A DNA stretch of 58,979 nt. Origin: Alistipes sp. (GTDB lineage Bacteria; Bacteroidota; Bacteroidia; Bacteroidales; Rikenellaceae). This document shows, one piece after another, positions 12,239 through 43,622 of this stretch (the stretch's first letter is position 1; every line of letters begins with the position of its first letter). Made by a program: the position numbers and the translations under genes. Under the pieces are notes generated by a model that saw nothing but the letters and a program-made list of their open reading frames with translations, searched no databases and was not told where the DNA came from. The DNA lies in assembly GCA_017403125.1 (NCBI GenBank), contig JAFQOR010000014.1:1-58979 (forward strand), written 5' to 3'.

Positions 12239-12246
12239 TACGCCTT

Positions 12247-15147
12247 ATGATTATGGTAGGTGCGGTTGTTGTAATTGCCTTCATTGTAGCTGTGTGCATA
12301 TACGCATTAGTTCAGCATGTCGCAAAGAATAGATATAGAAGGTCGGTTGAGTCGCTTATGGGCGATGTGAGTATCGCAATTGAAGAGTATAATAATATAT
12401 TTCAGCCTAATCATCAAGTTGAGGATAGTGAGTTGGATTCGTTTCTTGCAAAGCACAAATACGTGTTTGAAAGAATATATTATTTAGGCTCTCATAAGTG
12501 GTTTGAGCAACGTTTGTTTGATGCTTGCAGAATTACTGAATTGCAAGATTGCGTCGAACATTTCGAGGAGTATAAAAAACAAATCAATATAATATACGCT
12601 GCAATTACAGATCTTCAATTGCAATCCGATGAAATCTTGTTACGTTATGGACAACTGATGTCTCCGAATCATTATTTTACATATTCGGAGATGCAGGATT
12701 TTAGGAAATCGGTGGAGCATCATATTGAGTTTGCAAGCATAATATTGTCTAAATACCCGCAGTTTATTTCGGATGATACGTCGCGAAGAGTATTAGAGAT
12801 TATTGTTAATATAGAGGATGAGCGACAAAAACATAATCAAGAATTTGCTAAATCTGAACTTTGTAATAACAAGGAATATTTTGATACTGTCGTAGGACAA
12901 TACCCATTAGATCCACAACAGCGTGATTCAATTGTAAAATTGGAGGATAATTGTCTTGTTGTAGCAAGTGCCGGTAGCGGAAAGACTTCTACAATTGTTG
13001 GAAAAGTAAAGTATCTTGTTGAGAAACGGAAAATAGATCCATCGAAAATATTGTTGCTTACATATACGAAAAAAGCTGCGTTGGAGTTGGCTAATCGTGT
13101 TAAGGTCGATGGTCTTGTAAGTGGAACGTTTCATGGCTTGGCATACAAAATAATTTCGGAAACAACCGGACAAGCTCCGTCTGTGTGTGGGGCAGATGTA
13201 TCGTTAAATGTTTTTAGAACTTTATTGAGCAACAACAAAGATTTTTTGCATGCAGTTAATATGTATGTAATGAACTATCAGTCGCTCATGAAATTGGAGC
13301 ATGAGTACAACGATGCATTTACCTATTATGAGGATCGAAAAAGATATGGTATTCAATCACTGTTTGCAGATGTCGATGGCAAACTGATTTTTACTAAAAG
13401 TGAAGAGGAGAAGCGGATCTGTACTATGCTAACTAAATGGGGCGTTATGTTTAGATATGAGCAAGATTATCAGATTGATACCAGAACGCCGGAGCATAGA
13501 CAATATAAGCCTGATTTTTCAATATACTTCAAGGATGTAAATGGCAATTGGACTCGTATATATTTAGAGCATTTTGCAATAGATGCTAATGGATGTGTGC
13601 CAATGTGGTTTGGAGATGGCTCCAAGGGTGGTTGGAGTGCTGCAAATAAGCGTTATGTTGAAGGGATGGCTTGGAAGCGTAATCTGCATAAGAGTAAAGG
13701 CACAATACTTATTGAAACAACAAGTGCGCAGTTTCACGATGGAACAATTGAGTCGGAACTGAAACAATCGCTACTTCGTTGTGGCGTGTCAATAAAAGAG
13801 CGTACCGATGCAGAAATGTATGATATCATTATCAGTCGAAATCGGCAGATAGAGAAGAATGTTTTTACGCTTATTTCTTCATTTGTAACATTGATGAAGG
13901 CTAATGAAAAGGAAATAGATAATCTAATAAAAAGTCTTGATGTCAAGGAAGGTGCTGTCGAGAGCCCGATATGTAAAAGAAATAGGTTTATTTTAAGTAG
14001 TATAATTAAACCATATTTTAGCCAATATCAACAAGAATTAAAATCCAACTATCATATTGATTTTATGGATCTTGTTATTCAGGCAACGAAGATATGCCGT
14101 ATGGGGGCGTGGAGACAGTATGAGTATATATTGATAGATGAGTTTCAAGATATTTCTGCTGATAGATATAAATTTTTGCAAGCGTTGCGATGTAAGACAA
14201 CTAAATTGTTTTGTGTAGGTGATGATTGGCAATCAATATTTCGTTTTGCAGGAAGCGACATGTCTTTGTTTTATCAATTCGAGAAAGCGTTTGGATATAC
14301 GGAGGTGTGTAAAATAGAGACCACCTATCGTTTCCATCAGCCAATTATTGATAAATCATCTGCATTTATACTGCGAAATCCAGAACAACGACACAAGAGC
14401 GTAAAACCGGTATTAAGCGATAATAAGAAAACATATTTAACATTCAATGGGTGTTGTGTCGAACAAGAAGATGCTGTTCTACGTCAAGTAGAGGCAATTA
14501 TTCGTTATATACCTAATGATGAGTCTATACTATTGTTGGGACGTTACAATTACGATGCTGTTTCAGTTGGCTTCGATGGTAAAATTGGCAATGGCGATAT
14601 GAGAATAAAGTTGCGTATTGCTAACCGTGATGTCATTTTTATGTCTGTACATTCTGCCAAAGGACTTGAAGCTGATCATGTTATTCTACTTAATTGTAAT
14701 CACGGTGCATACGGGTTCCCGTCTCTTATTGAGGATGACCCAATATTGGATTTTGTTTTAAGTGGAAAAGAACCGTACCCTTTTGCCGAGGAACGAAGGC
14801 TGTTTTATGTGGCTATGACTCGTGCTCGTAATCATGTCTATGTTCTTTATGATTCACGAAGACCATCTGTCTTTATTAGCGAGTTTATGGTCAATATGGA
14901 CGAGGGCTCGTATATGTGCCCTAAATGTTTATCGGGAATGATAAAGCCTATTAAAAGCGGAATGTTAAAAAATGGAACTAAATATAAGTCGTTCTCTTGT
15001 ACAAATAGAGAGTCTGGTTGCGATTTCTTTGAAACTAAATATGGGGATCTAACGCCTCCGGGTATTCGTATTACCCCGCAGATGACGCCGCTGGACATTG
15101 AGAAGCTGCGAGAAAATAGGCGTATGTTGCGAAAGAGCCTTCAATAA
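12247..15147 (+). CDS. Membrane-anchored helicase IV (HelD)-like protein with nuclease-like insert and zinc ribbon
   Basis: A 966-residue SF1 UvrD/Rep-type helicase. Residues 3-22 form a transmembrane helix. Walker A is ASAGSGKT (Lys246) and motif II is DEFQD (631-635). Later motifs include GDDWQSIFRFAGSD, TTYRF, SVHSAKGLEADHVILLN and LFYVAMTRARNHVYVL. Between motifs Ia and II an insert shows PD423 and a Glu441-His442-Phe pattern, then a Trp-Lys-rich helix, like the restriction-endonuclease-like insert of helicase IV proteins. The C-terminus has a topoisomerase-type C4 zinc ribbon (Cys891, 894, 918, 925). The gene is clearly richer in A and T than its neighbours, which suggests transfer. The role could be DNA repair or phage defence; the sequence does not decide. 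Confidence 0.85.
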   Translation: MIMVGAVVVIAFIVAVCIYALVQHVAKNRYRRSVESLMGDVSIAIEEYNNIFQPNHQVEDSELDSFLAKHKYVFERIYYLGSHKWFEQRLFDACRITELQDCVEHFEEYKKQINIIYAAITDLQLQSDEILLRYGQLMSPNHYFTYSEMQDFRKSVEHHIEFASIILSKYPQFISDDTSRRVLEIIVNIEDERQKHNQEFAKSELCNNKEYFDTVVGQYPLDPQQRDSIVKLEDNCLVVASAGSGKTSTIVGKVKYLVEKRKIDPSKILLLTYTKKAALELANRVKVDGLVSGTFHGLAYKIISETTGQAPSVCGADVSLNVFRTLLSNNKDFLHAVNMYVMNYQSLMKLEHEYNDAFTYYEDRKRYGIQSLFADVDGKLIFTKSEEEKRICTMLTKWGVMFRYEQDYQIDTRTPEHRQYKPDFSIYFKDVNGNWTRIYLEHFAIDANGCVPMWFGDGSKGGWSAANKRYVEGMAWKRNLHKSKGTILIETTSAQFHDGTIESELKQSLLRCGVSIKERTDAEMYDIIISRNRQIEKNVFTLISSFVTLMKANEKEIDNLIKSLDVKEGAVESPICKRNRFILSSIIKPYFSQYQQELKSNYHIDFMDLVIQATKICRMGAWRQYEYILIDEFQDISADRYKFLQALRCKTTKLFCVGDDWQSIFRFAGSDMSLFYQFEKAFGYTEVCKIETTYRFHQPIIDKSSAFILRNPEQRHKSVKPVLSDNKKTYLTFNGCCVEQEDAVLRQVEAIIRYIPNDESILLLGRYNYDAVSVGFDGKIGNGDMRIKLRIANRDVIFMSVHSAKGLEADHVILLNCNHGAYGFPSLIEDDPILDFVLSGKEPYPFAEERRLFYVAMTRARNHVYVLYDSRRPSVFISEFMVNMDEGSYMCPKCLSGMIKPIKSGMLKNGTKYKSFSCTNRESGCDFFETKYGDLTPPGIRITPQMTPLDIEKLRENRRMLRKSLQ

Positions 15148-15161
15148 ATACTGCATGGTAT

Positions 15162-15197
15162 ATAGAAATAGAGTGGATATTTCCACTCTATTTCTAT
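15162..15197. terminator. Hairpin after the helicase gene
   Basis: A perfect 16-bp stem (15162-15177 with 15182-15197) and a TATT loop, 15 bases past the helicase stop. There is no long T-run, so it is a hairpin terminator of moderate certainty, placed between convergent genes. Confidence 0.7.
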
Positions 15198-15258
15198 GTA
15201 AACTACGACTGCAATATATGTCGAATCATGAATAGATAAAATAGTGTTTAGTTGCTAA

Positions 15259-39540: not shown

Positions 39541-42057
39541 TTAGAGGCTCTTTATCGTAATCTTGTTGCTCTGCAAGCCATCGCCATGTACCGTGAGGGT
39601 GATGTCGCCGCGCTCGCCTCGCAACGAGCGTATGATAGCAAGAGCCTTGCCATTGAATAGCTTCATCTTGTTGCCCTTCAATGACTCGCTACCTGCGGCA
39701 TTACCGTTGTCAACGCCAACAAGTTCGCCGGCACCCGTAAGCTCGAAGTAGAGTTGGTTCATTGCCGTAGGCATGAAGTTGCCGTCGTTGTCGGTGCAGT
39801 CGATCGTGATGTACGATAGGTCGTAGCCATCGGCAACAATGGCTTGGCGGTCGGCAGTAAGCGTAAGTTTTGCGGGCTCGCCTGCGGTTTTGCGCGTGTG
39901 GCGCAGTATCTCCTTGCCATCCTTGTAGCCTATGGCGGTAATTTCGCCCGGCTCATACTCTACGCCCTCCCATACGGCATGAAGTCTGTTGGCTGTCTTC
40001 TTGCTGCGTCCGAGCGAACGTCCGTTCAGGAAGAGCTCAACCTCGTCGGCAGTATTGTAGTATGCCCAAAGGTCGATTACGTCGCCCTCTGACCAATTCC
40101 AATGGGGGAAGAGGTGCAGCGTAGGCTCGTCGGTCCACTCCGAACGATACATGTAGTAACAATCCTTGGGGAAACCGCACAAATCCACAATGCCGAAGTA
40201 TGATGAACGCGAGGGCCAAGAGTAGGGGGTAGGCTCACCTATGTAGTCGAAGCCTGTCCATACGAATGTTCCTGCACAATAGTCGCGGTCGCGCACAACT
40301 ACCCAAGCCTCTTCGTGAAGCGTTGCCCAAGGTGCACGCGAGTTGTCGTATGCCGAACATTGGTGGTGCTCGGTGTCGTAGGGGAGGTCCCAACGCTCCG
40401 GAACAACGTGTATCTGGCTCGATGGGTGTAGATAGAAGCCACGGCTATTGAGCGACGATGCTGTCTCGGAGCCTACGAACGGCATATCGGGATACCAGAT
40501 GCGCACCGAGTCGTAGTCCTTCTCGTGGTAGTTGAAGCCCACGATATCTATCGCTCCCGAGCGCAGTAGGTTGTTGAACGGACGGGTCTCGTTGCAGCCG
40601 GCAGTCACGGGGCGAGTGTTGTCATACTTTTTGAGTGTTGCCACGATATGGCGCGTGAGCAATACATTGGGGTTGGTATCTGCCTCATCAACCTCCCCCG
40701 AAGCCTTATCGGCAAGGAAGTTCATGAGTAGATTGCGCTGCTCGGCGGGAAGGTTCTCCAAGCTTTCGCCATCAGCATCCCACTGCTCCAAAATCTCGTT
40801 GCCCACCGACCACATGATAATCGATGGGTGGTTGCGGTCGCGCTTGATGAAGTCGATGAGGTCCTTCTGGTGCCACTCGTCGAAGTAACGGGCATAGTCG
40901 TACTGTGTCTTGGCGCGACGCCACATGTCAAAAGCCTCGTCCATCACGAGGATGCCTCGTTGGTCGCACATGTCCAGGAGCTCGGGTGTTGGCGGGTTGT
41001 GCGAGGTTCGTATGGCGTTTACGCCAAACGATTGCAGAATGTCGAGCTGGCGCTCCAAGGCGCGACGATGCACGGCAGTTCCCAGAGCTCCCATGTCGTG
41101 GTGCATACATACGCCTTTGAGCTTAATGTTGCGGTCGTTGAGCCAGAATCCGGTATCGGCATCGAAGCGTATGGTACGTATGCCGAAGGGGGTTACGTAG
41201 CTATCGACGGTATTGCCGTCAATCTCGACGGTGCTAACCAAGCTATACATGTAGGGGCTATCGGTGTCCCAAAGGTGGGGCGACGGAATCTGCATCTGCA
41301 TATCTACATCGATGCTCTCGCCTGCACCTATCGATACTTTGCGCTCGTCCTTACGCTCGCGCTTGTTGTCGGCATTGAGAATCTCGTTTATGAGCGTTAG
41401 GTCCTGTTTTTTGCCGCTCTTGTTCGTTATCGTAACGATGGCATTAACGGTGGCACTATTGCTATTGACCTCGGGCGTTGTGACGTATGTTCCCGAATAC
41501 TCGATGAATATGTTGGATGTAACAACCAGACGTACATTGCGGTATATGCCGCAACCGGCATACCAGCGTGAGTTGGGCTGCTCGGAGTTGTCGCAACGCA
41601 CAGCGATGATATTGTTCTCTCCCTCGGGGTTCAGATAGGGTGTTATGTCGTACGATAGTGATGTGTAGCCATAGGGGCGGTGACCAACCTCGTGACCATT
41701 GACATACACGGTACTATTCATGAAGATGCCGTCGAACTCAACGTTTACCATTTTATTCTCGATGTTTGGTGTCGTGAAGTGCTTGCGATACCAACCTATG
41801 CCGCCCGGAAGTGCTCCTCCTGCCGGTGTCGAGGGGTTGTCCGCCGAGAACTCTCCCTCCACGCTCCAATCGTGGGGCAGGTGTAGCTCGCGCCAATTCG
41901 AGTCGTCGTAGTAGGCAGAAGCGTAGGCATCGTTATCGCCCAGGGTGAAGCGCCAACCGAAGTTGAAATCCTCCTCTGCGCGCGATGTATCACTATCTTT
42001 GCACGAAGTGGCAAAGAGCAGTAGCGATGTCAGCGTTAGATAGACAAAGTGTTTCAT
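39541..42057 (-). CDS. Glycoside hydrolase family 2 lipoprotein, beta-galactosidase-like
   Basis: An 838-residue surface or periplasmic glycosidase. The signal peptide ends in a lipobox (FATSC, Cys at about 19). Domains in order: GH2 sugar-binding jelly roll (about 25-200), immunoglobulin-like domain (about 205-300), TIM barrel (about 305-600), a DUF4982-like region (about 640-700) and a last Ig-like domain with ADRQAIVADGYDLSYI. The acid/base Glu is in MWSVGNEI and the nucleophile Glu in PFVGSETAS. Family members remove beta-galactosyl or related residues from glycans. No SusC/SusD genes flank it, so the target polysaccharide is open. The next gene upstream is an MFS transporter. Confidence 0.92.
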   Translation of the reverse strand: MKHFVYLTLTSLLLFATSCKDSDTSRAEEDFNFGWRFTLGDNDAYASAYYDDSNWRELHLPHDWSVEGEFSADNPSTPAGGALPGGIGWYRKHFTTPNIENKMVNVEFDGIFMNSTVYVNGHEVGHRPYGYTSLSYDITPYLNPEGENNIIAVRCDNSEQPNSRWYAGCGIYRNVRLVVTSNIFIEYSGTYVTTPEVNSNSATVNAIVTITNKSGKKQDLTLINEILNADNKRERKDERKVSIGAGESIDVDMQMQIPSPHLWDTDSPYMYSLVSTVEIDGNTVDSYVTPFGIRTIRFDADTGFWLNDRNIKLKGVCMHHDMGALGTAVHRRALERQLDILQSFGVNAIRTSHNPPTPELLDMCDQRGILVMDEAFDMWRRAKTQYDYARYFDEWHQKDLIDFIKRDRNHPSIIMWSVGNEILEQWDADGESLENLPAEQRNLLMNFLADKASGEVDEADTNPNVLLTRHIVATLKKYDNTRPVTAGCNETRPFNNLLRSGAIDIVGFNYHEKDYDSVRIWYPDMPFVGSETASSLNSRGFYLHPSSQIHVVPERWDLPYDTEHHQCSAYDNSRAPWATLHEEAWVVVRDRDYCAGTFVWTGFDYIGEPTPYSWPSRSSYFGIVDLCGFPKDCYYMYRSEWTDEPTLHLFPHWNWSEGDVIDLWAYYNTADEVELFLNGRSLGRSKKTANRLHAVWEGVEYEPGEITAIGYKDGKEILRHTRKTAGEPAKLTLTADRQAIVADGYDLSYITIDCTDNDGNFMPTAMNQLYFELTGAGELVGVDNGNAAGSESLKGNKMKLFNGKALAIIRSLRGERGDITLTVHGDGLQSNKITIKSL

Positions 42058-42121
42058 ATCGTAGTTCTATTATTGTTATTCAACAGAATATTTTATGAGC
42101 CAAGTCATAGACTAAACCATA

Positions 42122-42129
42122 CAAAGATA
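42122..42129 (-). promoter_or_regulatory. -7 element of the GH2 gene
   Basis: TATCTTTG on the minus strand, 65 bases before the start. The nearest TTG upstream is only 16 bases away, so the -33 part is weak. Confidence 0.5.
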
Positions 42130-42185
42130 CAAAAAAAGTAAATAGCAAGAGTCCGAAGTGCAGGAAAATAGTGATGGCATGAATA

Positions 42186-42224
42186 AAAAAATATCTGTTT
42201 CGGGGAGCGAAACAGATATTTTTT
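42186..42224. terminator. Strong terminator after the MFS transporter gene
   Basis: A perfect 17-bp stem (42186-42202 with 42208-42224) with a GGGAG loop; the stem itself ends in A-run/T-run arms, giving a T-tract on either strand. It lies 22 bases after the MFS stop. Confidence 0.9.
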
Positions 42225-42245
42225 ATTGTGAGTTTTATCGTAACA

Positions 42246-43622
42246 CTACTTCTTGATGTTGGGGAGCTCCAAGCCGTAACCCTTCTTCGAGTCCTCGCGT
42301 TTTAGTAACATGCCGATAAAGAGGGCACATACGCCAAATGACGAGAAGATAATCATGGGCAATACGTATGAGTTTGTAGCATCGTTTACGGCGCCGATGA
42401 TGATAGGCACGATGAGAAGACCGATATTCTGAATCCAGAAGATTACGCAGTATGCCGAGCCCAGGATGCGCTCGTCGATAATCTTGGGTACCGAGGGCCA
42501 CAGGGCTGCGGGCACCAACGAGAATGATACACCGAGAATGGCAATGATTGCAACAGCAAGACCCTCCGATGGGAATGCCGGAAGCAGGAAGGCAAAGCTC
42601 AAATGGCATGCAATCATGATGATAGAGCCTACCATAAGCATCGATGCCGCCTTACCCTTGCGGTCGATGAAGCCACCGAGGAAGGGGGTAAGACACATAG
42701 CGAGGATGGGGAAGAAGCTGAATAGCTGTGCGCCGGTGTCAGAATCAACATTCAGTGTCTTGGCAAGGAAGTCGGGAGCGAACTTCTGGAAGGGGAAGAT
42801 TGCCGAGTAGTACAATACGCACATCAAGGCTACCAACCAGAACATCTTGCTGGTGAATATGTTCTTCAAATCCGAGAACTTGAACTCCTCCTCCGAAGCC
42901 TCCTCCGAAATCTCGCCCGTAGCGTGTAGCTGCTTGTCGAGCTTGCGGTCCATAATGCAGAATACGAAGTAGAAGATAAGACCAATCATGAGAAGTATAG
43001 CACCGAAGAGTACGGGAGCCGATACCTCCGAGCCACCGCTCTTATAGACAATAGGTGAGAGCCACATTGCGGCAAACACACCCAGACGAGCGATTGACAT
43101 CTCCAAGCCCATGGCCATAGCCATCTCCTTGCCCTTGAACCACTTGGCAATAGCCTTCGACACGGTTGTTCCAGCCATTTCGCAACCACAGCCAAATATC
43201 ATGAAACCAACACACGCCAAAAGTGCCGTACCGGGCAGGTCGAACAAGCCCCAGCTTGTCATAGTGGCATTAAGCTCCGAGTTGGCAAACGAGTCGCTTA
43301 CGGCGTAGAACTTGATACCGGCACCAATAACCATCAGCGATGCCGATAATAGACCCGTGAAACGGATGCCCATCTTATCGAGGATGATACCTGCGAAGAT
43401 GAGGAAGAAGAAGAACACGTTAAGGAAGTACTCCGATGCACCATAGGTGCCATAGGTCGTACTATCCCACGCCAATGAGGGGTCTGCTGCGAGGTTCTCC
43501 TTCATAGGCGAAAGAATGTCCACGAACATGTAGGCGAAGAACATCATCAACGAGATGAGAATCACCGCCGCCCAGCGTGCAAACGCCGAGTCGTTGAGTT
43601 TGCGTTGAATTGTTTGAGTCAT
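42246..43622 (-). CDS. Major facilitator superfamily transporter
   Basis: A 458-residue protein with about 12 membrane helices and a cytoplasmic central loop (around residues 220-245, charged, EISEEASEEEF). The loop between helices 2 and 3 has FAGIILDKMGIRFTG, the MFS Gly-x3-Asp-Lys/Arg motif, repeated in the second half as LGGFIDRKGKAAS. The substrate cannot be told from sequence; the GH2 gene downstream might suggest a sugar, but a terminator and a separate promoter divide the two. The TPR gene lies 42 bases upstream. Confidence 0.85.
   Translation of the reverse strand: MTQTIQRKLNDSAFARWAAVILISLMMFFAYMFVDILSPMKENLAADPSLAWDSTTYGTYGASEYFLNVFFFFLIFAGIILDKMGIRFTGLLSASLMVIGAGIKFYAVSDSFANSELNATMTSWGLFDLPGTALLACVGFMIFGCGCEMAGTTVSKAIAKWFKGKEMAMAMGLEMSIARLGVFAAMWLSPIVYKSGGSEVSAPVLFGAILLMIGLIFYFVFCIMDRKLDKQLHATGEISEEASEEEFKFSDLKNIFTSKMFWLVALMCVLYYSAIFPFQKFAPDFLAKTLNVDSDTGAQLFSFFPILAMCLTPFLGGFIDRKGKAASMLMVGSIIMIACHLSFAFLLPAFPSEGLAVAIIAILGVSFSLVPAALWPSVPKIIDERILGSAYCVIFWIQNIGLLIVPIIIGAVNDATNSYVLPMIIFSSFGVCALFIGMLLKREDSKKGYGLELPNIKK

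Follow-up and report, generated by a model that had tools for sequence, protein, structure and literature searches.

One gene in the window, by which we mean the whole 58,979-nucleotide stretch of Alistipes sp. DNA that was analysed, encodes a protein that with near certainty carries a membrane anchor, an SF1 helicase motor, a nuclease-like insert and a zinc ribbon in a single chain (Table 1). In our estimation there is an even chance that this is an accessory, horizontally moving, single-gene helicase-nuclease that is held at the membrane and likely acts on foreign DNA. A full-text literature search found no description of such a protein, and the annotations on the eight plasmids that we opened offer no name other than UvrD-helicase domain-containing protein.

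A Dus gene lies upstream, with 8 bp from its stop to the ATG start of the helicase gene, which on its other side has PF02579 and malate-dehydrogenase-like neighbours. The predicted model of the whole protein has a mean pLDDT of 89.4 and a pTM of 0.80. The hairpin right past the stop codon is very stable, at -30.7 kcal/mol and z -8.29 for the 68 nt around it, and is possibly the 3' end of the helicase gene's transcript; the terminator scan did not call it.

Table 1. Positions in the window of the helicase-nuclease gene, its protein features and its surroundings.
Feature	Position	Strand	Basis
Segment between the Dus and PF02579 genes, helicase-occupied here	12239..15258	.	Empty in two close relatives
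Helicase-nuclease gene, 966 aa	12247..15147	+	ORF; UvrD-helicase and UvrD_C; structure model
N-terminal transmembrane helix, residues 3-22	12253..12312	+	Sequence
Walker A, residues 241-247 (K246)	12967..12987	+	K246 in 114/114 rows
PD-(D/E)XK-like nuclease core (residues 384-492), an insert between motifs Ia and II	13396..13722	+	
Helicase motif II, DEFQD 631-635	14137..14151	+	Sequence; D631 and E632 in 114/114 rows
Topoisomerase-type C4 zinc ribbon, C891, C894, C918, C925	14917..15021	+	Alignments; Zn_ribbon_Top1 (PF01396) in homologues
Hairpin past the stop codon, 18-bp stem, 4-nt loop	15160..15199	+	Folding of the surrounding 68-nt stretch

Relatives were gathered at E <= 1e-3 in a scan with one genome per species and without a filter for the insert. 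At least 577 stretches encode a relative at this threshold, in the Bacteroidota, Fibrobacterota, Spirochaetota, Bacillota and other phyla, and the best 80 were kept. A first alignment of 78 rows joins 77 of these 80 to the window protein; with 28 copies from the taxonomic family and eight from plasmids it grows to 114 rows, one of which is a haloarchaeal plasmid copy. Residues K246, S385, E388, Y404, E405, P422, D423, F424, E441, Y470, D631 and E632 are identical in all 114, and because they persist in proteins 30-50% identical to that of the window, this pattern is not a matter of chance.

An earlier sequence-only reading of this DNA had recognized SF1 helicase motifs at K246 and DEFQD, and this assignment holds: Pfam finds UvrD-helicase (3e-45) and UvrD_C (2.7e-17), the N and C domains of the SF1 UvrD type, together with the Walker A and DExQ motifs. 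By sequence comparison the closest helicase is E. coli helicase IV (HelD), whose helicase core is 36% identical over 304 aa and 27% over 215 aa and aligns in hhalign with 100% probability over 519 columns. DNA helicase IV (NF008276) is also the best NCBIfam name, but its 358.5 bits stop short of the cut-off of 543, so that the window protein would be a helicase IV relative that falls outside the family as defined by that model. HelD is cytosolic. It has a Helicase_IV_N domain, no zinc ribbon by Pfam (as the earlier reading had said of helicase IV) and no residues for the nuclease core, which hhalign places mostly against gaps; in the window protein, by contrast, Helicase_IV_N (PF12462) is not listed by Pfam at E <= 10. 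Some proteobacterial relatives have retained that domain, which reaches 1.4e-28 in one from Polaromonas and stays below the cut-off in those from Acinetobacter and Halomonas. The best 25 of the 47 PADLOC matches for the window protein bear generic UvrD-type names, RTasHel and GajB, the SF1 core being shared with Gabija GajB, RTasHel and other UvrD-type defence helicases. In this case, however, the Gabija partner gene GajA is not next door, the neighbours being Dus and PF02579, and the nuclease-like domain belongs to the helicase's own chain.

The insert had been noticed for a PD423/E441-H442-F443 pattern said to resemble a restriction-endonuclease-like region of helicase IV proteins. The pattern is there, but a region of this nuclease-like kind is absent from E. 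coli helicase IV. Structure prediction, proposed at the time as a check, assigns the core (about residues 384-492, pLDDT 94.7) a PD-(D/E)XK-type fold at high confidence, although Foldseek alone found nothing significant, with none of 138 matches at E <= 0.001. In the predicted model the alpha-beta-beta-beta-alpha-beta core consists of a helix at 386-397, strands at 401-404, 424-429 and 435-443, a second helix at 462-484 and a last strand at 488-492. The acidic, metal-binding residues typical of the PD-(D/E)XK superfamily are represented by the invariant E388, D423 and E441. Among the 114 rows, position 442 is histidine in 99 and tyrosine in 15, and position 443 is phenylalanine in 105, tyrosine in three, tryptophan in three, leucine in two and glutamine in one; the lysine of the canonical (D/E)-x-K motif is found at position 443 in none of them. 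K477 is kept in 103 of the 114 rows, and either it or H442 could take the role of the missing catalytic lysine. Vsr-type (EDxHD) nucleases are also without this lysine. In the predicted model a Vsr-like fold is the nearest to the insert, the nearest single fold being the I-Bth0305I catalytic domain (VIA-align, 2 matches), while hhalign of the insert against Vsr gave a probability of 0.5%, with no sequence kinship seen.

The lack of the E-x-K lysine in every row would also suit an insert that is a degenerate nuclease, recognizing DNA structure only, in a protein that works as a membrane-held motor, and inactive nuclease domains do occur in other helicase-nuclease systems. We regard this as very unlikely, given that the three acidic residues are present in all 114 rows, that position 442 is always histidine or tyrosine, and that the nearest fold belongs to nucleases that manage without the lysine as well. 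Nuclease activity of the insert is likely.

By sequence the insert is nearest, and weakly so, to endonuclease I of phages T7 and T3, with a profile E value of 0.0015 at best over 41 columns in hmmsearch and a probability of 68% (E 4.7e-5) in a single hhalign comparison. The hhalign alignment brings S-x-x-E, YE, PDF and E441 into register and sets the lysine of the phage enzymes' E-T-K opposite F443. At E <= 0.1, 23 of the 78 members match Phage_endo_I, the best at 0.0011, and the insert of the window protein is not one of them; in the insert profile search an unrelated SNF11 protein appeared at E 0.024 amid T7 endonuclease I chains. T7/T3 endonuclease I is a branch-cutting nuclease, and the T7 record is named Holliday junction resolvase. 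It is a stand-alone phage protein, whereas here the domain sits inside a helicase.

As first reported, residues 3-22 form a transmembrane helix (MIMVGAVVVIAFIVAVCIYALV, then QHVAKNRYRR), and in the predicted model a helix spans residues 2-51. Since the basic residues come after the helix, the orientation is probably N-out, C-in. A hydrophobic N terminus was seen in 53 of 74 homologues from the collection, 18 of 28 from the family and one of eight from plasmids, the same rule picking out 117 of 516 unrelated proteins. By hand count, 41 of the 43 rows in the window protein's tree clade retain their N terminus and 38 of these have a TM-like one; in the 16-row clade that includes the Bacillota copies, 15 lack it. 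Relatives thus differ both in Helicase_IV_N and in the transmembrane helix, giving at least three kinds of N terminus (Helicase_IV_N, transmembrane helix, neither). The anchor is not constant across the whole helicase-insert family, and in the window protein's own branch a membrane tether is likely. At the other end, the proposed C4 zinc ribbon is borne out by its four positions, each of them cysteine in 71 of 78 rows and 89 of 114, and by Zn_ribbon_Top1 calls in homologues (for example 8.8e-22 in L077); Pfam called no zinc ribbon in the window protein, and the haloarchaeal plasmid row has none of the four cysteines.

The gene was also described as foreign-looking, and its composition and patchy, mobile distribution agree. 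Its GC is 0.373 and its GC3 0.327, against GC3 values of 0.568-0.709 in five nearby genes, and the gene is lower in GC than its flanks at 27 of 32 family loci and 41 of 51 collection loci tested. At E <= 1e-60, own genome counted, 18 of the 101 genomes from the genus have a match, as do 33 of 268 from the family and 13 of 392 from the phylum; among the more complete genomes the figures are 6 of 38, 11 of 110 and 12 of 388. Many of the genomes are incomplete drafts, and the family and phylum scans scored only the best 2-3 candidates per genome. When 20 relatives were read 4-12 kb downstream of the Dus gene, the helicase was found there in none. The Dus-PF02579 junction is variable in the genus: in L137 and L140 it is empty, Dus standing next to the PF02579 and malate-dehydrogenase-like genes with the helicase absent; in L139 and L141 it holds other genes; and in 16 of the 20 relatives no PF02579 gene was found in the stretch read, leaving the two unlinked there. 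A tree of 106 rows, made by a quick method and with long branches, needs seven changes of family label, at least six of them forced by starred branches, and pairs the window protein with one from the Muribaculaceae.

The closest relative found comes from a predicted viral contig (L245:2008-5052, IMGVR_UViG_2558860990_000001), matches at 59% over 962 aa and keeps anchor and ribbon; it was found later and so is absent from the tree. Viral-contig scans turned up 5 and 6 loci, and the insert matches 60 plasmid records and 4 of 50,697 phage records, all four being unannotated faecal contigs of 4.1-5.7 kb. The helicase-nuclease gene is accessory and mobile. These plasmid and viral copies, along with integrase or relaxase genes within the stretches opened on three plasmids, would be expected of a gene that serves the mobile elements themselves, in plasmid or phage replication, in recombination or in the exclusion of rivals. 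That seems to us quite improbable, with the insert matched in so few phage records, the L245 stretch giving 0 matches against the phage set, and neither integrase nor transposase among the three neighbours tested at the window locus.

A survey of genomic contexts, which the sequence-only reading had also recommended, favours defence in the wider set of relatives, but not at the window locus, where the three neighbours tested are ordinary genes, nor for the most part in the window's own family. The flanking ORFs come from a simple longest-ORF rule instead of a gene finder. Once near-duplicates and loci with less than 2.5 kb on a side were dropped and the list was trimmed to a residue limit, the wider set comprised 37 of 77 loci, 26 of them from the Bacteroidota (by record title or tree label) and 11 from other phyla; its control consisted of 32 of 33 stretches obtained from 36 genomes, placed by hand and blind to content. 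The 147 neighbour proteins matched 230 PADLOC families at E <= 1e-10, compared with 31 for 147 controls from the same genomes, these pooled counts being of families and members per family and not of proteins with any match. Among the PADLOC matches listed, the neighbours include type I, III, IV and IIG restriction, pAgo, PbeA, PDC and mads, and the controls mads, PDC, DpdF, PsyrT and BrxHI; the restriction and pAgo names are absent among the control matches listed. Pfam assigns PLD, HNH, ResIII, Fic and integrase domains to the wider-set neighbours. In the family to which the window belongs, the PADLOC families matched number 71 for 111 neighbours and 18 for 111 controls. The best 25 of the 71, with one member each, point to four kinds of protein (PDC-S05, PDC-S58, PDC-S23 and AriB), and the 18 control families, all listed, come from about five proteins; as the listed families trace to few proteins on both sides, any excess is not clear-cut. 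By Pfam these neighbours are mostly housekeeping genes, such as phosphoglycerate kinase and transketolase.

We opened the regions in eight of the 60 matching plasmid records. A SIR2 gene is beside the helicase on a Mesorhizobium plasmid, multiubiquitin and ThiF genes are within about 6 kb of it on an Acinetobacter plasmid, as are DUF262 genes on a Vibrio plasmid, and a restriction-endonuclease gene and an HNH gene are near it on a Hymenobacter plasmid; the other four regions hold transposase, hypothetical or unrelated genes. The Acinetobacter stretch (L203:501-10421) has two UvrD-helicase genes alongside its multiubiquitin, ThiF and DUF6527 genes.

The ordinary neighbours at the window locus and in most of the family, and the position of the gene 8 bp after Dus, would also be natural for a cellular DNA-repair or recombination helicase-nuclease, one related to helicase IV whose work is to resolve branched intermediates and which has no part in defence; the kinship of the motor to helicase IV and the weak match of the insert to a junction resolvase point the same way. 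Even so, we hold this to be unlikely, because 235 of the 268 genomes from the family and 379 of the 392 from the phylum have no match at E <= 1e-60, because the gene shows repeated gain and loss, low GC and plasmid carriage, and because the neighbourhood is defence-rich in the wider set. Given that many relatives sit in such regions, the protein is a good candidate for one-gene defence against incoming DNA; with ordinary neighbours at its own locus and mostly in its own family, this reading rests on relatives elsewhere and on mobility. The candidate defence role put forward earlier is supported by the predicted nuclease fold, the mobility and the wider context, and weakened by the gene's own locus, the inconstant anchor and the missing lysine, and we judge its chances to be about level. 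A broader claim, that the relatives form an undescribed, widespread single-gene defence family of Bacteria, with one member on an archaeal plasmid, uniting motor, nuclease and DNA clamp in one chain, with anchored branches that are tied to the inner membrane and destroy incoming DNA, is a tentative one and somewhat short of even.

For the membrane-held helicase-nuclease that we prefer, the scheme that we infer, including membrane location, orientation, nuclease activity, polarity, target and defence role, would run as follows. A single N-terminal helix would hold a helicase IV-type SF1 motor at the inner membrane, the body of the protein lying in the cytoplasm, and the motor would load on single-stranded DNA or a branch and then translocate. 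In UvrD and PcrA the 1B region faces the duplex ahead of the motor, and the nuclease-like domain, situated in this region, may cut at or near the junction of single and double strands, while the C-terminal zinc ribbon may help hold the DNA. The likely target would be foreign DNA, of phage or plasmid, as it enters or replicates.

To our knowledge, the known helicase-nuclease defences are soluble and either divide the two activities between chains, as Gabija does, or carry them at the two ends of a single chain, as Hna does. A nuclease-like domain inside the duplex-facing region of the motor, its acidic residues conserved across wide divergence, together with the membrane helix that most members of one branch have, would be a new arrangement; it would also allow one to test directly whether cells place the destruction of DNA at their membrane. 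Hna is a single anti-phage protein with helicase motifs and a PD-(D/E)XK nuclease; in the portion of the report drawn on here (PMC13381803) it is an SF2 helicase with a C-terminal nuclease and no anchor is mentioned, whereas the window protein is an SF1 helicase with an inserted nuclease-like domain and a transmembrane helix.

Two further observations stand apart from these questions. A second branch in the window's taxonomic family (L172-L181) is anchorless and mostly longer (954-1114 aa), and forms a ten-row clade in the tree. Elsewhere in the window, the AT skew of +0.175 at positions 42001-43000 is out of line with its surroundings.
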